A stretch of 64,000 nt of DNA from Pyrobaculum neutrophilum V24Sta (GTDB lineage Archaea; Thermoproteota; Thermoprotei; Thermoproteales; Thermoproteaceae), in assembly GCF_000019805.1 (NCBI RefSeq), contig NC_010525.1:1414618-1478617 (forward strand). The letters are read 5' to 3'. Positions 3,174 through 52,717 of this stretch are shown here, piece by piece. A program made the translations under genes and the position numbers. The notes under the pieces are model-generated. The model was not told where the DNA came from, made no database searches, and was given only the letters and a program-made list of their open reading frames with translations. Position 1 is the stretch's first letter. Each line of letters opens with the position of its first letter.

Positions 3174-3617
3174 CCTCCCCAAGGCCTCGGGGAGCCTCCC
3201 CAGGTTGACCACCTCCCTCTGCTGTAGGTCGCCCCCCAAGCACCTTCCCCACATCACCCGGAACTTTACATTGCCCCGCGCCACCCTCCTCACGTTTTCA
3301 AGAGTCACCTCCTCCTGGTTTACAACCGCGCCAGGGCCTGCGTAGGCCAGCCTATGGGCGTAGCCGACGTAGAGGAGCTCCCCAGACGCCTGGGAGAGAA
3401 CCCGCTGGATAGTCTGCCTCCTGCAAGTGGACATGTTTAAAACCCGCGTCCTGTATCCCATCTTCGCCACCAGTGCCCCAACTACGGCGAATTGATACGA
3501 CGAGCCAGGCGGCGGGGGGATCACGGTCACATCGCCTAGGGGGTTCGAGACGTCAAACAGCAGGTGGGTGTAGAAGTCGCGGAGTAGGTACCTCCCCGCG
3601 GCCTCTCCAAGCATCAT
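3135..3617 (-). CDS. Hypothetical protein coupled to a DsbA-like gene
   Basis: 160 residues, no family recognised. It contains a Gly/Pro-rich loop (PPPPGSSYQFAVVGALVAKMG) followed by alternating strands and helices, suggesting a Rossmann-like fold that might bind a nucleotide, though no Walker motif is present. Its ATG overlaps the stop of the upstream DsbA-like gene (ATGATGA), so the two are translationally coupled. The 3' end overlaps the convergent phosphoesterase by 39 nt. Confidence 0.65.
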   Translation of the reverse strand: MMLGEAAGRYLLRDFYTHLLFDVSNPLGDVTVIPPPPGSSYQFAVVGALVAKMGYRTRVLNMSTCRRQTIQRVLSQASGELLYVGYAHRLAYAGPGAVVNQEEVTLENVRRVARGNVKFRVMWGRCLGGDLQQREVVNLGRLPEALGRLEVWLAERLGRR

Positions 3618-4162
3618 AGGGAAGAGAGAGTCTCCATAACCTCGCTGGGGGACATATAGCCGAAGTGCACATAGCCTCTGTCTTTCCCCAGGTGGTAGAA
3701 GAGGAGGGTGGGGGTGCCGTATACGCCAACCTCCTCAGCCACCTTTTCGCACTCCCTCAAATTCCCCTCAGGGCAACTGCCCGTCTCCACCCTCTTTCCC
3801 GAGAAGACCTCCCTGATAAAGCCGAGCCTCTCCCCCTCCGAGATGCACCTGAGAGCCCTGTGTAGATGCTCAGCCTCCCTATGTACAACGTAGTCGCACA
3901 TGGCGTATATGATTAACCCCCTCTGCGCCATCTCCAGCAACACCTCTTCTGTCTCTCTAAAGAGCTTGGCGCAGAAGGGGCACCTCAGGTCGAAGAACAC
4001 AACTAGCGCCCTTTCGCCGCTTCCCACCTTCACAGACGCCAGCTCAAGTATCCTCCTTACGGCGTCGCCCCTCGTTACAGGCGTCAGACGGGGCCTAGGC
4101 CTTCTGAAGAGCACGGCGATAGAGACAAATAGCCCATAAAAACATTTCACCGGTGGCGACAT
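3614..4162 (-). CDS. DsbA/DsbG-like thiol-disulfide oxidoreductase
   Basis: 182 residues. A hydrophobic N-terminal segment (about residues 8-18) could be a membrane anchor or signal. FFDLRCPFCAKLFRE holds a CPFC redox motif after a beta strand (about residues 53-62), and VGVYGTPTLLFY supplies the cis-proline loop. It should form or isomerise disulfides; Pyrobaculum-type organisms are known for many intracellular disulfides, so either side of the membrane is possible. It is the first gene of a pair with 3135-3617. Confidence 0.85.
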   Translation of the reverse strand: MSPPVKCFYGLFVSIAVLFRRPRPRLTPVTRGDAVRRILELASVKVGSGERALVVFFDLRCPFCAKLFRETEEVLLEMAQRGLIIYAMCDYVVHREAEHLHRALRCISEGERLGFIREVFSGKRVETGSCPEGNLRECEKVAEEVGVYGTPTLLFYHLGKDRGYVHFGYMSPSEVMETLSSL

Positions 4163-4241
4163 TGGTCTTAGCTGAGCTGTGACGAGGGGAACGATTGCGG
4201 TACCGGAGATAGGTACTTATACAGCAATGTACGTGGGCCTT

Positions 4242-4976
4242 ATGATCAAGGTGGTGATACACCACACCTGCAAGTCGTCGTATGTGCTGTACAAAGCGCT
4301 CAGGGGAACCCCCGGCATAGCCTTCGAAATGGTCGGCACAAGGTACCTCCCATACCTCAAGAGCTACATCTTAAGCGTCCCCGCGGTGTTTAACGACGGG
4401 AGGCTCATCTTGCTTGACCCGGTGGAGCCAAACGACGTTTTGGCCTTAAGAGACGGCAAGACGGAGAAGGACCTAGACCTCGACGAAGCCGCGGAGAACT
4501 TCATGAGAGGCGTCATGGCGAGCCAGGCCATACTGGCCGCGGTTATGTTGTACAAATCGCTGAAGCCCGCCCTCGAGCCGGAGCTGGTGGCGGTGCTCTC
4601 GAGGGCTAGGTACCACCGGCAGGAGGATAAGACCGACCAGATCACGAGGAGACTCGCCGAGAGGGAGGAGGAGCTGATACGCGAAAACTGGGAGCGCCTC
4701 GTCAAAATACTGACCTTCGGCCTAGTTAGAGAGATGTACTGGCTCGGAGCCGACGTAGACAACGTCGAGCCTATCCACGTGAAGATGTGGCTGTTGGCTA
4801 AAGCGACGGTGGGCAGGCTGGGCCTGCCCTACCCAAAGCCCGCAGTCCCAGAGGACGTAGCCGCGGCGGTGTACACAACGCTGAAGGAGTCTGGCAGGAG
4901 GTACCTAGACAAGGTGGCCGAGGAGCAGACCACCATATTGACAGACGCGGACTTTATGTCGTTAGCCAAGGTTTGA
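4242..4976 (+). CDS. Thioredoxin-fold-like N-domain with helical C-domain, uncharacterised
   Basis: About 244 residues. Starting at ATG 4242, the protein opens MIKVVIHHTCKSSYVLYKAL and later has LSVPAVFNDGRLILLDPVEP. This is a thioredoxin-like strand-CxxS-helix start and a cis-Pro loop, but with only one active-site cysteine (CKSS), so it would be a monothiol or non-redox version. The remaining ~150 residues are helical and charged, with no motif I know. A TATA-like TACTTATAC at 4212-4220 lies about 26 nt before 4242, favouring this start over the in-frame GTG at 4179. Confidence 0.65.
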   Translation: MIKVVIHHTCKSSYVLYKALRGTPGIAFEMVGTRYLPYLKSYILSVPAVFNDGRLILLDPVEPNDVLALRDGKTEKDLDLDEAAENFMRGVMASQAILAAVMLYKSLKPALEPELVAVLSRARYHRQEDKTDQITRRLAEREEELIRENWERLVKILTFGLVREMYWLGADVDNVEPIHVKMWLLAKATVGRLGLPYPKPAVPEDVAAAVYTTLKESGRRYLDKVAEEQTTILTDADFMSLAKV

Positions 4977-5057: not shown

Positions 5058-8000
5058 ATGTATCCAGTCACCAAGCTCGATGGGTCCACGGAGCCTTTCT
5101 CGCCGGAGAAGTTGAAGCTCTCTGTCCAAAGGGCGGCTGGCGAGGTAGGGGTTGAGGTAGACGGCGAAGTCGATATAAAGATGGACCGTGCTGTGGGGTC
5201 GTGGGAGCTGGCGGATCTAGTCCAGCTTGAGTTGCTCAAACGCGCCATAGATAGGCCGGAGCTTGCGGAGGTGGCTAAGTCCCACCTCCTGGGCAGGGTC
5301 TACAAGGAGGTCTTCGGCAAGGACTTCCTCAGGCACAAGTCGGGCTATCTAGAGCGGGCTCTCGCGAGGTATAGACAGCTGGCGGAGGCCGGCCTGCTGA
5401 AGGAGGAGTCTCTACGCCTACTGGAGGCCTTCGAGCCCAAGCCCGACTTCGACCGGTCGCTCAGCTACAACGCCCTCCGTCTCTTCACCAACGGCAACTA
5501 CGCCCTGAGGGGCGGAGACTTCAGGTTGGCCGAGACCCCCAGCATGGCGGCTTGGCGTGTCGCCACAGCCGTCGCCCGGGATGTGGAGACGGCGAGGAGG
5601 TACTACGGCGTAATCACGTCGCTGAGGATAGTGCCGGCGTCGCCCTTCTGGTTCAACGCCTGGACTAAGAAGGAGATGTTCGCCTCGTGCTTCACGCTGG
5701 AGGTGGAGGACTGCCTATCCTCCCTCTCCCACCCAGGCCGCTTCTGCATCTACGACGCCCTTGCCTACTCCGGCATAATACAGCAGTTGGGCGGCGGCGT
5801 CGGCTACGACTTCTCCCTGCTGAGGCCGGAGGGCGACGTGGTGAGGGGGAGCGTCGGCGTTGCCTCAGGCCCCGTCAGCTTCATGAAGCTGTTCGACACC
5901 AACGTCGAGGTGATTAAGCAGGGGGGCAAGAGGAGGGGCGCCCAGATGGGCACGCTACACGTGTGGCACCCCGACGTGAGGAAGTTCATAAAGGCCAAGA
6001 CGGGGGAGCTCAAAGACGCCCACCTCCAGAACTTCAACATCTCGGTCTTCGTAGACGACGCCTTCATGGAGAAGGCGCTGGGTCTCGACAAACCGGAGTA
6101 CCCCCTGGTGAACCCGAGGATATATCTTGAGAGGGCCGGGAGGAAGCCCGTAGAGGAGACCCGCGTCAGCCCGCCGCAGGAGGCTGTGGCCGGCTGGGTA
6201 GACGCGAGGGAGCTCTTCCGCGAGATCACGGAGGGCGCCTGGGACTCGGGAGACCCCGGCGTGATATATAAGGACAACCTAAACGCCTCCAACCCCCTCC
6301 TCGGCGAAGAGATAGAGGTGGCCGGCCACAGATTTAGATACGTCTGGAGAGCCGTCAACCCCTGCGTCACGGGCGATACGAAAGTGCTAACTAAGGAGGG
6401 CTATCTCAACATATCGGAGGTATACAGAAGAGCTAAAGAGAGGGGAGAGCTCGCGCTGATTACCGAGGGCGTTGAGGAGGATGGAGATCCCAGAGGGTTC
6501 GCCGCAGAGGTCGTGGTTCCTCATGTAGTGGTCACCGCGGATGGGAAAACTCAGGTGAGGTACGATGTTGTTAAGTCTGGCGTGATAAAAGTGGGGACGA
6601 AAGATGTCTACAGAGTTGTGACTAGGGAGGGCTTCGAGATAAAGGCTACGCCAGATCACCGTCTGCTAGTGGTGAAAGGAAGCAGGGATAGACCGAGCGG
6701 GTTTGAGTGGAAGCGCGTGGATCAGCTGAGGCCAGGGGACCTGCTGGTCATAGCGCCTGTGGATATCGAGGGCGAGGACATCGGCGAGGACACGATGCCT
6801 TTGTCTGTTGCCTACATGCTGGGCCGGGTGGTGGGAGACGGCTCTGTAACCGTAGACAAGCACAACAGGGCTCACATATTCATATACTTCGGCAGGGACG
6901 AGCTGGACGACGCAGTAAGCCTAGTTGATATGTTGAAGGCGGAATACGGCTCCGACCTCAGCTACAGCCTTACTGAGACGAAGAGCGAAATTAAGCTGGA
7001 GATACCTGGCGCGTTAGGTAGGGCGATCGCCTCGTTGGTACCTGAGCTGATACACGCCAAGAGCGGCGAAAGGAGAGTGCCGGAGATCATCTTTAGAAGC
7101 AAGCCGAGGATTATCAAGGCGTTCCTCAGAGGCCTGTTCGACGCAGACGGCACGGTTGACGCGGACAGCGCCATAAGACTCACCTCTCAGTCTCTGCAGT
7201 TGCTCAGAGATGTGCAACAGCTATTGTTGCTGTTCGGGATATACTCGGTTATCTACACGCGCAAGCGTTCCGGGGGCGGATTCACGTACACTACTAAGAG
7301 CGGCGAGAAGAGGGAGTACAGAGGCTCTGGCCAGTACTACGAGTTGGTGATCAAAAACGAGTCGAGGTGCAGGTTCGTGGAGAAGATAGGGCTGACGCCG
7401 CGCAAGCTGGCGAAGGTCAGCACGAAGAAGTGTAGGCGGGAGAAGCCGTTTGCCACGGTGGAAAGGGTGGAGTATATAGGGAGGGAGGTGGTTTACGACT
7501 TCGGAGTTCCCCAACACCACCGCTATATTGCCGAGGGAATTGTAAGCCACAACTGCGCCGAGACCGTCCAAAACCCCTTCGAGGTGTGTAACCTCACCCA
7601 CATAAACCTGGTCAAGTTCGCCAGGGAGTGCGCCGGGAAGACCTTCGAGGAGAAGCTGGCGTGTATAGACTGGGAGGGCCTCGCCGAGGCGGCCCGCCTG
7701 GGCACTAGGTTCCTCGACGACGCGATAGACCGTAGCTACACGGGGATAGAGGTGATAGACGAGATGAACCGCGCCACGAGGAAGAACGGCCTCGGCATCA
7801 TGGGCTTCGCTGAGCTGTTGATAAAGCTGGGCATCCCCTACGCCAGCTGGGAGGCGGTGGAGCTGATAAACAGGATAATGGCGTGGATATACGTCAACGC
7901 CCTCGACGAATCCGCCGAGTTGGCCAGGGAGAGGGGGCCCTTCAAGTTCTTCGAGAAGTCGGCGTACGCCAGAGGCGAGATACCGGTTCTGAAGTTCCAG

Positions 8001-8780
8001 GACTACGTCTGGGGCAGGTGGGAGCGCGTCAGAGGAGCCCTCCCGCCGGAGCTGAGGGAGGCAGGCGACCGCCTCCGCGGGATAACCATGAGGACGAGGG
8101 AGTGGCTGAGGCCGAGACTTGAGGCGCTGAGGGAGAAGGTCAGAGGCGGCGTGAGGAACTCGGTGGTGTTGTCCATAGCCCCCACGGGCAGAACCAGCAT
8201 ACTGGCCGGCACCACAAGCGGCGTGGAGCCCGTCTTCGCCCTGGCCTTCATAAGGAACGTGACCGTCGGCACCCTCATAGAGTACTACTGGCCGGCGGTG
8301 GAGTGGCTGAGGGCGAGGGGCCTCTGGACGCCCCAGGTGAGGAAGACTGTGGAGGAGACCGGCATGCTCAAGGACGCCCCTCTGCCGGAGGAGGTGAAGC
8401 ACCTCTTCGCCACCGCCATGGAGATCGGCTGGCTGTGGCACGTCCTAATGCAGGCGAGCGCGCAGCAGTGGGTGGATCAGGGCATATCCAAGACCATAAA
8501 CATGCCCGCCAACGCCCCAAAGGAGGACGTATACTGGGCTTTCGCCCTCGCGTGGGCCCTCGGCGTGAAGGGCATAACGGTGTATAGAGACAAGTCCAAG
8601 TCTGTGCAGGTGATATACACAGGGCTGAAGCAGGAGATAAAGAAGAAGCTGGCCGACACGAAGATAATAGTGAAGCCCGTGGCCCTAGAGGCCTCCATAG
8701 AGGAGGCCGCCGAGAAGGCCAAGTTGAAGGCCCTAGAGGAGGGCAAAGACCCCTACTGCAAAACCGGAGAGTGCGGCTAG
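5058..8780 (+). CDS. nrdJ: Adenosylcobalamin-dependent (class II) ribonucleotide reductase, intein-containing
   Basis: 1240-residue precursor; 843 residues after removal of a 397-residue intein. The N-terminus is an ATP-cone (VTKLDGSTEPFSPEKLKLSV). Extein motifs are MFASCFTLEVEDC (redox cysteine), the NPC/AETVQNPFEVCN block split by the intein, and SIAPTGRTSILAGTTSGVEP, typical of class II enzymes. The two cysteines around the insertion are 11 residues apart, as in characterised class II enzymes (thiyl and redox Cys). The C-terminal YCKTGECG is the usual swinging dithiol. It converts ribonucleotides to deoxyribonucleotides. TATA at 5031-5037 is 25 nt before the ATG. Thiol-redox genes lie just upstream. 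Confidence 0.95.
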   Translation: MYPVTKLDGSTEPFSPEKLKLSVQRAAGEVGVEVDGEVDIKMDRAVGSWELADLVQLELLKRAIDRPELAEVAKSHLLGRVYKEVFGKDFLRHKSGYLERALARYRQLAEAGLLKEESLRLLEAFEPKPDFDRSLSYNALRLFTNGNYALRGGDFRLAETPSMAAWRVATAVARDVETARRYYGVITSLRIVPASPFWFNAWTKKEMFASCFTLEVEDCLSSLSHPGRFCIYDALAYSGIIQQLGGGVGYDFSLLRPEGDVVRGSVGVASGPVSFMKLFDTNVEVIKQGGKRRGAQMGTLHVWHPDVRKFIKAKTGELKDAHLQNFNISVFVDDAFMEKALGLDKPEYPLVNPRIYLERAGRKPVEETRVSPPQEAVAGWVDARELFREITEGAWDSGDPGVIYKDNLNASNPLLGEEIEVAGHRFRYVWRAVNPCVTGDTKVLTKEGYLNISEVYRRAKERGELALITEGVEEDGDPRGFAAEVVVPHVVVTADGKTQVRYDVVKSGVIKVGTKDVYRVVTREGFEIKATPDHRLLVVKGSRDRPSGFEWKRVDQLRPGDLLVIAPVDIEGEDIGEDTMPLSVAYMLGRVVGDGSVTVDKHNRAHIFIYFGRDELDDAVSLVDMLKAEYGSDLSYSLTETKSEIKLEIPGALGRAIASLVPELIHAKSGERRVPEIIFRSKPRIIKAFLRGLFDADGTVDADSAIRLTSQSLQLLRDVQQLLLLFGIYSVIYTRKRSGGGFTYTTKSGEKREYRGSGQYYELVIKNESRCRFVEKIGLTPRKLAKVSTKKCRREKPFATVERVEYIGREVVYDFGVPQHHRYIAEGIVSHNCAETVQNPFEVCNLTHINLVKFARECAGKTFEEKLACIDWEGLAEAARLGTRFLDDAIDRSYTGIEVIDEMNRATRKNGLGIMGFAELLIKLGIPYASWEAVELINRIMAWIYVNALDESAELARERGPFKFFEKSAYARGEIPVLKFQDYVWGRWERVRGALPPELREAGDRLRGITMRTREWLRPRLEALREKVRGGVRNSVVLSIAPTGRTSILAGTTSGVEPVFALAFIRNVTVGTLIEYYWPAVEWLRARGLWTPQVRKTVEETGMLKDAPLPEEVKHLFATAMEIGWLWHVLMQASAQQWVDQGISKTINMPANAPKEDVYWAFALAWALGVKGITVYRDKSKSVQVIYTGLKQEIKKKLADTKIIVKPVALEASIEEAAEKAKLKALEEGKDPYCKTGECG
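6363..7553 (+). mobile_element. Intein with LAGLIDADG homing endonuclease in nrdJ
   Basis: In-frame insertion of 397 codons (precursor residues 436-832). It starts CVTGDTKVLTKEG (block A, Cys1), has TPDHRLL (block B, TxxH), two LAGLIDADG-type motifs (AYMLGRVVGDGSV and FLRGLFDADGTV), and ends VVYDFG...IAEGIVSHN followed by Cys+1, so every splicing residue is present. Flanks are AVNP and CAETV. Codon use is slightly more AT-rich than in the exteins. Because both LAGLIDADG motifs keep their acidic residues, the endonuclease may be active. Confidence 0.95.
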
Positions 8781-50588: not shown

Positions 50589-51091
50589 AGGAAAGGTGGA
50601 AAAACGCGTTAATAAACATTGCCTAGGCAACGTTAGAGACCCTCTACGGAATCCCCTCAATAATATAGGTGTTACTCACGGCGCCTTCGCCAGAGCCGAG
50701 CTTCTCTCGCCAGGTTCAACGCCTCAGTTTGAGATACACGGCGTGGCTCTTAGTAGCACAGGCAGTACCCGAGGCGTCAGCCTGTATCGAGGCGTGGAGA
50801 GGCCAATGGCGGTTTTCGGGAACCGGCGGAGAGGAGGGCCGTCGCCACATGGCTGTACGCGGTTGCTCAACTGCGGCGGGCCTGGAGGAGCCGCAACAAG
50901 GCTTGAGGAACAAAGGCTCGTGGACCAAAAAGCCCTAGCCCCAGTACAGCTCGGGCTTCTTTTCTTTATCTGGCGTGCATTTCTTAGGGTTAATCGTTTT
51001 GAGCATATGTGTTATTTGTATACCATCCTAATATAGATTTCTATGTACATTTTACAGGCAAAGTAAATTTAAAAAACATGTCGGGATTTAT
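50589..51091. other. About 500-nt intergenic region with an AT-rich end
   Basis: No convincing gene. The left part carries the eL31 promoter and the TTGCCTAGGCAA palindrome. The middle is GC-rich with a possible AAGCCC / GGGCTT stem followed by a T-rich run near 50960. About 50955-51085 is strikingly AT-rich for this genome and ends in the TATA (AAATTTAAAAAAC, 51065-51077) of the radical SAM gene. Long frames here have no codon bias. Confidence 0.5.
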
Positions 51092-51856
51092 GTGATCAAC
51101 CCGGAGAGGTTGCTTGAGCTCGTGGAAAGATATACGGTGAAGGCAGAGGGAGGGGTGGTGTATAGACGCTACAGGAGGTTCAGAGCGGATAGGTGGTACG
51201 GGGGGATAGCCACCGCCGACGTGGTGGGTTGCAACCTGCGCTGTGGAATGTGTTGGGCGTGGAGGAACACCTCCTTCGTCCTCACCGCGGGCCAGTGGAT
51301 GCCGCCGGAGGAGGTGGCCGAGAGGCTGAGGAAGATCGCGCGGGAGAGAGGCTATGAGCAGGTGAGGATATCGGGTGGGGAGCCCCTCATAGCGCCTAGA
51401 CACGCGCTTGCGGTTATAGACGAGCTGAGGGACTACGTCTTCGTGGTGGAGACAAACGGGATCCTCATAGATAGGGCGCTGGCCAGGGAGCTCGCGGCGA
51501 GGCCCAACGCGGTGGTTAGGGTCTCGATAAAGGGGGCGACGCCCGAGGAGTTCGAGAAAATTACGAGGTCCCCCAGAGCCTACTTCCACAGGCAGCTGGA
51601 GGCCATAAGGCACCTCCTGGAGAGCGGCCTAACGCCGTGCCGCGACGTCTACCCAGCGGCGATGTTGGGCTTCTCCACGGAGGAGAGCGAGCGGGATCTC
51701 AAAAGAAGGCTAGAGGCGGTGGACCCCCGGCTACCACAGTGCCTCGACGTTGAGTACGTAATACTTTACCCACACGTCGTGAAGCTCATGGAGACCCGCG
51801 GACTTAAGCCCATCCGCGCCGTGACCCCGAGCGGCATTCCGGCCTTCATGATATGA
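51092..51856 (+). CDS. Radical SAM protein of unknown function
   Basis: 254 residues, GTG start. The radical SAM cluster motif is VVGCNLRCGMCWAWRN (CxxxCxxC, residues about 50-57), followed by VRISGGEPLIA (SAM-binding GGE) and VVETNGIL. No extra cluster-binding domain is seen at the C-terminus. It resembles the generic 'radical SAM' archaeal proteins; substrate unknown. Its stop overlaps the next start (ATGA, 51853-51856), tying it to a DNA-glycosylase-like gene. Confidence 0.85.
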   Translation: MINPERLLELVERYTVKAEGGVVYRRYRRFRADRWYGGIATADVVGCNLRCGMCWAWRNTSFVLTAGQWMPPEEVAERLRKIARERGYEQVRISGGEPLIAPRHALAVIDELRDYVFVVETNGILIDRALARELAARPNAVVRVSIKGATPEEFEKITRSPRAYFHRQLEAIRHLLESGLTPCRDVYPAAMLGFSTEESERDLKRRLEAVDPRLPQCLDVEYVILYPHVVKLMETRGLKPIRAVTPSGIPAFMI

Positions 51857-52596
51857 ACTCTGACTGCCTCCGCCTCACTCTATACCCCAGCCTAACGCTG
51901 GCGTTGCTGGACGAGCGCTACGTTAAGATCTTCGGCGTGAGGAAAGGCGTGGCGGCGCAGGACGACCACTATATATCCGGCCGGTGGTACAACCCCTGGA
52001 GATATATAAACGACGCCGAGGGGAAAACGCGCGATATAGTGCACCAACTCGTCGAGAGATACGGAGGATGCGTAAGCATATCCACATCCCCAGGCGACGA
52101 GGACCTCCTCTTCGTCGTAGCCTTCCTCACCCAGAACACCGACTACCACGGCAACGTGCTGAGGTGGACCCGCCGCCTCTTCCAGCGCTCCGAGGATCTG
52201 CGGAGGATCGCCCAGCTCGCCCCGTCGGTCGGGCGGAGCTACCAGCTCCAGCGCCTTCCCCAGGCTATACAGGACTTCACGGCGTTGGGAAAACCGCGGG
52301 CCAGAGATGAGCTGCTGAAGATAAGGGGGGTGGGCCCCAAGGTGGCGGACCTCTACCTGCTCTACACCGGCGACCCCACCTCCGCCCCCGTGGATAAACA
52401 CTTCATGCGGACAGCCCCAAAGCTGGGGCTCTCCGGCGAAGCTCCTCGGGCTGAGCTATGCCGCAGGTACACATGCGGGCGGTGCCCCCTCTCTGCCCGG
52501 TGTCTAAGAGCTGAGGCAACCCGCCGCCTCGGCCGCCTAGCCGGCTGGGCGCAGACCATCTCCTACCTCCTAGACAAGGGGCAACTACCCGCCTAG
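51853..52596 (+). CDS. HhH-GPD DNA glycosylase with FeS-like cysteine cluster
   Basis: 247 residues. LLKIRGVGPKVADLYLLY is the helix-hairpin-helix with the Lys found in bifunctional Nth-type enzymes, and APVDKHFMR supplies the catalytic Asp. The C-terminal cysteines CRRYTCGRCPLSARC follow a C-x4-C-x2-C-x5-C spacing instead of the Nth/MutY C-x6-C-x2-C-x5-C, so the 4Fe-4S loop is shorter. The ~100-residue N-terminal part is unusual. Base specificity unknown. Translationally coupled to a radical SAM gene. Confidence 0.8.
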   Translation: MNSDCLRLTLYPSLTLALLDERYVKIFGVRKGVAAQDDHYISGRWYNPWRYINDAEGKTRDIVHQLVERYGGCVSISTSPGDEDLLFVVAFLTQNTDYHGNVLRWTRRLFQRSEDLRRIAQLAPSVGRSYQLQRLPQAIQDFTALGKPRARDELLKIRGVGPKVADLYLLYTGDPTSAPVDKHFMRTAPKLGLSGEAPRAELCRRYTCGRCPLSARCLRAEATRRLGRLAGWAQTISYLLDKGQLPA

Positions 52597-52717
52597 CGGT
52601 TGGGGAAGGCGAGGGGGGCCCACCCTGCGCCACTCAGCCGGAGCCGCCGGCGAAAACGCCGCCTGCGGGCGCTCGGCGGCTTAATTTAAAAAGGGAGGCG
52701 GGCCCCAGCACCATGGG

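Follow-up and report, generated by a model that had tools for sequence, protein, structure and literature searches.

A radical SAM enzyme linked to an OGG1-like DNA glycosylase across the Thermoproteota: a possible DNA repair module

Introduction

Two overlapping genes of the hyperthermophile Pyrobaculum neutrophilum V24Sta, encoding a radical SAM (rSAM) enzyme and a DNA glycosylase, raise the question of whether their products work together and, if so, on what. The host genome consists of one contig of 1,769,823 bases (NC_010525.1); the window analysed here is the whole 64,000-nucleotide stretch from 1,414,618 to 1,478,617, and feature coordinates refer to it. If the two proteins act in a joint pathway, radical SAM chemistry would serve DNA repair in a second way, besides that of spore photoproduct lyase, and would be coupled to base excision in hosts about whose treatment of bulky or anoxic lesions little is understood. 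According to the results described below, this two-gene unit of many heat-loving archaea has the appearance of an as yet uncharacterised pathway of DNA repair that combines radical chemistry with base excision. Since both proteins are small, mostly single-copy and come from a hyperthermophile, the question is directly testable in vitro.

Results and Discussion

Organization of the gene pair

The pair consists of the following elements:

about 51064..51074, + strand: TATA-like element TAAATTTAAAA, the sole apparent promoter of the pair
51092..51856, + strand: rSAM gene, 254 aa, GTG start (from the ORF list), with a PF04055 match and an AlphaFold2 model
51853..51856, + strand: ATGA stop/start overlap coupling the two genes
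51853..52596, + strand: gene of an HhH-GPD DNA glycosylase/lyase, 247 aa, ATG start, with a predicted OGG1-like fold and assigned to a new subfamily

Both ORFs and their ATGA overlap were found as originally predicted, and the shared promoter also claimed at that time agrees with the single TATA-like element that can be read from the sequence upstream of the rSAM gene. TAAATTTAAAA lies ~24 nt from the rSAM start, a position that fits a single leaderless archaeal transcript for both genes, and the next downstream gene has a TTTAAA-like element of its own at about 52683-52693. The arrangement is common among close relatives, most Pyrobaculum loci having the same ATGA overlap or a gap of <25 nt.

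The glycosylase forms its own OGG1-like clade

The Pfam HhH-GPD profile (PF00730) gave no match to the window glycosylase, and the scores against the NCBIfam models ogg (TIGR00588, 28.9 bits, cut-off 397.85) and nth (TIGR01083, 24.9 bits, cut-off 211.7) were far below the cut-offs. The profile of its family reached MBOgg1 (4ejy), Nth and OGG1 in the PDB, and the best Foldseek matches of the AlphaFold2 model (pLDDT 97.1) were mammalian and clostridial OGG1, with a TM-score of about 0.6 over nearly the whole chain. Judged by this match of the modelled structure and by the profile alignments to Nth, OGG1 and MBOgg1, the protein belongs to the HhH-GPD superfamily. The long N-terminus that had been described as unusual is part of the chain aligning to the OGG1 structures nearly full length. 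In a tree of 30 family members and 20 Nth-like proteins, the family was separate with a support of 100/96; thus, instead of clustering with ordinary Nth proteins, an outcome that had been named beforehand as contradicting the original prediction, it forms a clade of its own. Ordinary Nth identity is ruled out by this tree, by the cut-offs and by the position of the cysteine cluster described below.

The residues expected of an active glycosylase were located as follows:

52339..52341, + strand: catalytic Lys163, at the hOGG1 K249 position (HMMER alignment to hOGG1, 3ih7; Lys in 85/85 relatives)
52393..52395, + strand: catalytic Asp181, at the hOGG1 D268 position (HMMER alignment to 3ih7; 85/85 relatives)
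52552..52566, + strand: Gln234 and Tyr238, at the hOGG1 Q315 and F319 positions (alignment AGWVQTVAY / AGWAQAVLF)

The hOGG1 numbers, which we take to be K249, D268, Q315 and F319, agree with the chain offset of 3ih7. Both the Lys/Asp pair that marks bifunctional glycosylase/AP lyases and the Gln and aromatic residues of the OGG1 purine pocket are retained in the protein. Position 234 is Gln in all 85 relatives, position 238 is Tyr, Phe or Trp in all of them, and S129 and W105 are also invariant. A pocket of this OGG1-like kind, in which the Gln and the aromatic residue are conserved, points to a purine lesion. Plain 8-oxoguanine is an improbable candidate, since the host encodes an AGOG as well: the AGOG profile PF09171 did not match at the glycosylase gene but elsewhere, at 1243997-1244671 of the contig. 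The host also has Nth and a second PF00730 protein, and these three enzymes probably take care of plain 8-oxoguanine and oxidised pyrimidines. Most genomes carrying the pair encode AGOG and matches to the Ogg2-type profile PF22175 are rare, which rules out that the glycosylase replaces AGOG or Ogg2.

A four-cysteine cluster at a position not used by Nth

Between the helix carrying the catalytic Asp and the terminal helix, all relatives share four cysteines:

52459..52503, + strand: four-Cys cluster A (C203, C208, C211, C217), present in 85/85 relatives

The motif, C-x4-C-x2-C-x5-C, had been taken for a shortened form of the Nth cysteine loop. The motif itself is real, but it is not that loop, as it lies before the terminal GWxQTxxY helix (W232-Q234-Y238), whereas the loop of Nth, as in the genome's own Nth, follows the equivalent helix (a placement made by eye, the automatic alignment having joined both loops). 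To judge from their spacing and invariance, the four cysteines of cluster A probably form a [4Fe-4S] site at a novel location close to the base pocket, so that the family would show an Fe-S-type cluster at a place unused by Nth. A role of this cluster in DNA sensing or partner contact is speculative.

In 28 of the 85 relatives the Nth position holds an additional, clear four-Cys motif (cluster B), which follows cluster A by ~42 residues; six further ones combine an Nth-type cluster B with a cluster A that an insert has widened. About 40% of the relatives keep the Nth-type C-terminal loop, while the window protein is without it. Many members would thus hold two clusters in one protein. As the earliest-drawn branch of the family has cluster B but Thermoproteaceae do not, this cluster is probably ancestral and was lost in Thermoproteaceae. 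HhH-GPD proteins with two four-Cys motifs occur at loci L019, L134, L159, L166, L170, L223, L226 and others.

The rSAM protein is probably a minimal single-cluster enzyme

The PF04055 match of the rSAM protein (82.2 bits, cut-off 29.5) places it in the radical SAM superfamily, and its characteristic cysteines are invariant:

51230..51253, + strand: C-x3-C-x2-C motif (C47, C51, C54; residues 47-54), the predicted SAM-binding [4Fe-4S] site, present in 48/48 relatives

Neither a SPASM or auxiliary-cluster domain nor a further conserved Cys set was found in the protein; the latter indicates that it probably has one cluster only, and we regard it as probably a minimal single-cluster enzyme. Beyond the usual SAM-site motifs, residues such as Y27, R29, R31, W35 and Y36, all N-terminal of the Cys motif, are also invariant. 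The AlphaFold2 model (pLDDT 96.2) had its best TM-score, 0.64-0.66, with the PFL activase, and its lowest E-values with BlsE and SkfB. No NCBIfam model reached its cut-off among the best 25 of 60 matches; TIGR02493 (PFL-AE) scored 27.9 bits, below the cut-off of 231.75, and TIGR04070 (spore photoproduct lyase) was not among these 25. Some rSAM matches, among them those in G193 and G264, contain in-frame stops; recoding was rejected on the basis of these two, whose reading frames show a stop at nothing but the C-terminal end.

At the profile level, the rSAM has several relatives that act on nucleotides or RNA, namely MoaA, QueE and viperin. Together with the strong divergence of the glycosylase, which has no Pfam HhH-GPD match in the window, they would suit a repurposed glycosylase fold and a pair acting on RNA or on the nucleotide pool instead of DNA. 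This is decidedly unlikely considering that the Lys, Asp and base-pocket Gln of DNA glycosylases are invariant and the OGG1 fold is kept.

The pair is conserved throughout the phylum

Class and phylum searches were carried out with family alignments A1-A4, the phylum set comprising 398 Thermoproteota genomes in which the glycosylase was called at E <= 1e-12 and the rSAM protein at E <= 1e-30. The glycosylase was found in 107 and the rSAM protein in 143 of the 398 genomes; both were present in 105, the glycosylase by itself in 2 and the rSAM by itself in 38, so that the rSAM occurred in 105/107 glycosylase-positive versus 38/291 glycosylase-negative genomes. Fisher's test gave a p of about 1e-60 for this co-occurrence, a value uncorrected for phylogeny and obtained from phylogenetically correlated genome counts. 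In one of the two genomes with the glycosylase alone (G206), the match was weak and of Nth length.

Linkage of the genes was evaluated in 86 same-contig pairs, which take in a few genomes of the class search. The gap was below 600 bp in 70 of them and below 4 kb in 78. The 70 close pairs represent all four orientations (30 with the glycosylase first, 20 with the rSAM first, 10 convergent and 10 divergent), and the pair is spread over more than 15 families; in some genomes both genes are present but far apart. Within the order, both main genera of the host's own family have the two genes, as do one further family and a single genus of a third one; three more genera of this third family lack both, and so does one genus of the own family. 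Named relatives are Pyrobaculum and Thermoproteus. The genes are mostly single-copy and their distribution is housekeeping-like.

On the rSAM tree, sequences without the glycosylase are interspersed among the paired ones, and 22 changes are required to explain the adjacency label, with supported branches forcing at least 10 of them. Neighbourhoods were read at 80 named loci and 80 further stretches, where the glycosylase proved to be the sole constant neighbour of the rSAM gene; in these roughly 160 loci no third conserved partner was found, the outer neighbours changing by lineage, and no natural rSAM-glycosylase fusion was seen.

Conservation in four gene orders rules out chance neighbours, and the adjacency is a selected linkage far beyond chance. 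That the genes are neighbours by lineage history or shared regulation only, without a joint function, would agree with the phylogenetic correlation of the genome counts and with the genomes in which they lie far apart; the four gene orders, the at least 10 adjacency changes, the changing outer neighbours and the near-strict co-occurrence make it extremely improbable. Phylum-wide conservation, the four gene orders and the near-strict dependence of the glycosylase on the rSAM strongly support a functional partnership. The check for the pair across relatives, proposed with the original prediction, found it well beyond a single genome, whereas adjacency in this genome only had been named there as contradicting the prediction. 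The joint action suggested there is backed as a partnership by linkage, gene orders and co-occurrence, while what the partners do together can only be inferred.

The rSAM gene also occurs without the glycosylase

The dependence of the two genes on each other is asymmetric. Among 33 genomes without a glycosylase at the rSAM locus, 15 have it elsewhere, and the rSAM was found without the glycosylase in Methanocellales, Njordarchaeota and one deltaproteobacterial MAG. In the Thermoproteota about a quarter of the rSAM genomes (38/143) are without the glycosylase, although rSAM-only genomes may be incomplete or carry sub-functionalised paralogues.

These data bear on the suggestion, made in the original prediction, that the rSAM enzyme acts on the glycosylase. 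As a maturase or activase it would install a modification or a radical, and the modified glycosylase would then repair DNA. The best TM-score of the rSAM model belongs to the PFL-activating enzyme, which is itself a minimal single-cluster rSAM and has a protein as its target, the glycosylase is almost never found without the rSAM, and the genes are translationally coupled in Pyrobaculum, all of which would fit this reading. It is weakened by the persistence of the rSAM without the glycosylase in the 38 phylum genomes and several other lineages, by the interspersion of such sequences with paired ones on the tree, and by the glycosylase alignment, in which no glycyl-radical-like motif was noticed by eye; we consider it unlikely. 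As the glycosylase needs the rSAM while the rSAM does not need the glycosylase, the rSAM appears to have its own substrate and not to be a maturase only.

Several rSAM loci deviate from the common arrangement. In G119 (L245, 6856-7270) the glycosylase is broken to fragments beside an intact rSAM gene, while the gene is complete in G213, a close relative. At L274, an ordinary Nth gene stands divergent beside the rSAM gene (3438-4133 and 4193-4969), the family glycosylase being elsewhere in the genome. One family has a second, divergent rSAM paralogue that forms its own clade and lies away from the glycosylase (L218/L219 and L227/L228; genomes G218 and G262, also G233 and G356).

A proposed function of the pair

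The asymmetric dependence of the genes favours a joint module in which the rSAM acts on DNA, and we tentatively prefer the reading that the pair is a DNA repair module made of a purine-lesion glycosylase/lyase and an rSAM enzyme acting on DNA. The glycosylase would flip and excise a purine-type lesion, probably a guanine-derived one, and then nick the strand, while the rSAM would direct a 5'-deoxyadenosyl radical at the DNA itself and not at the glycosylase protein. The radical step might precede excision and render the lesion excisable, or it might act on what excision leaves behind. The rSAM has no clear sequence similarity to spore photoproduct lyase among the best 25 of 60 matches, and its closest fold by TM-score, a protein-modifying activase, would rather fit action on a protein; both observations speak against the module.

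Alternatively, the rSAM could make a modified purine that the glycosylase removes, the mark being epigenetic or one of self and non-self. There is a bacterial parallel, an rSAM linked to a relative of uracil-DNA glycosylase (TIGR03916, rSAM_link_UDG), and thymine modification has been suggested for associated enzymes (PMC3765255). Nevertheless, genes for restriction, methylation or defence were not seen repeatedly around the pair, and the mostly single-copy, housekeeping-like distribution is not what such a pair of modification and erasure would suggest, so this reading is quite doubtful.

Within the preferred repair reading, one more specific scheme can be drawn for anaerobic thermophiles, a radical-assisted base excision in which the rSAM breaks a bond by which a purine lesion resists any glycosylase, after which its OGG1-like partner can take out the base. 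The candidate would be an 8,5'-cyclopurine, whose C5'-C8 bond would be undone. The choice is motivated only by the description of 8,5'-cyclopurines as anoxic lesions, which are repaired predominantly by NER (PMC8307549), and we regard the scheme as a long shot.

Comparison with known systems

To our knowledge, spore photoproduct lyase is the only characterised rSAM enzyme of DNA repair, the role proposed here for the rSAM of the pair; it works alone, with no glycosylase. This radical SAM repair enzyme is narrowly restricted to spore-formers, mostly Firmicutes (PMC8307549).

Of the known systems, the bacterial rSAM_link_UDG pairing (TIGR03916) comes closest: an rSAM gene is likewise linked there to a DNA glycosylase gene, and, as here, DNA modification or repair is predicted only. 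Neither component of the present pair belongs to it: the rSAM families differ, the glycosylase is of the UDG superfamily there and of the HhH-GPD superfamily here, and the hosts are bacterial versus archaeal. When the host genome was searched with TIGR03916, nothing was found at the rSAM gene (1465709-1466470 of the contig), the best match (E = 0.19) being elsewhere. The pair thus looks like an independent archaeal counterpart built from other families. SplB-like rSAM genes have also been noted with uracil-DNA glycosylases and DUF4130 (PMC3765255). In the part of the literature that was covered, no description of an archaeal rSAM-glycosylase pair was found.

Among the HhH-GPD enzymes, OGG1 is the closest solved fold, and the glycosylase keeps its Lys249/Asp268 pair and the Q315/F319 positions. 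OGG1 is without four-Cys clusters, whereas the family described here carries one or two, and the opposite-base contacts may differ. With Nth/MutY the glycosylase shares the HhH-GPD core with Lys/Asp (Nth), the four-Cys spacing and, in ~40% of relatives, the Nth-type loop; it differs by its separate clade and, in the window protein, by a cluster before the last helix instead of a loop at the Nth position. Sis-HhH-GPD of Saccharolobus is likewise a crenarchaeal HhH-GPD glycosylase with a four-Cys loop. It has Ser for the catalytic Asp, relies on Glu134 for catalysis, is HP0602/MagIII-like and acts on alkylated bases (PMC11754123), whereas the Asp is kept as Asp181 in the window glycosylase. The word "radical" is absent from the text on Sis-HhH-GPD (PMC11754123).

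Lineage-specific surroundings of the pair

Beyond the glycosylase, the neighbours of the rSAM gene are specific to lineages. Desulfurococcales loci have carbamoyltransferase and kinase genes in common (named by eye), and Aigarchaeota loci a dCTP deaminase (named by eye) and a PA0069/SplB-like rSAM. PA0069/Rv2578c-type (SplB-like) rSAM genes recur near the pair in several lineages (L244 4952-5821, L211 8104-9006 and L215 2239-3168; also L129, L136 and L152). In the deltaproteobacterial MAG (L195), the rSAM gene is divergent to a lexA-like gene identified by eye (6891-7637 and 8001-8747), with a repeat-like element between them; the case for SOS control via lexA is weak, as the clearest palindrome is on the lexA side and the repeat lies in between. 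As a whole, such DNA-repair surroundings (the Nth gene in L274, the PA0069/SplB-like rSAM genes, the dCTP deaminase and lexA in L195) give weak support to a repair function. A DUF488-like protein, also recognized by eye, is encoded close to the rSAM or the glycosylase gene at L136, L149, L154, L179, L215 and L216.
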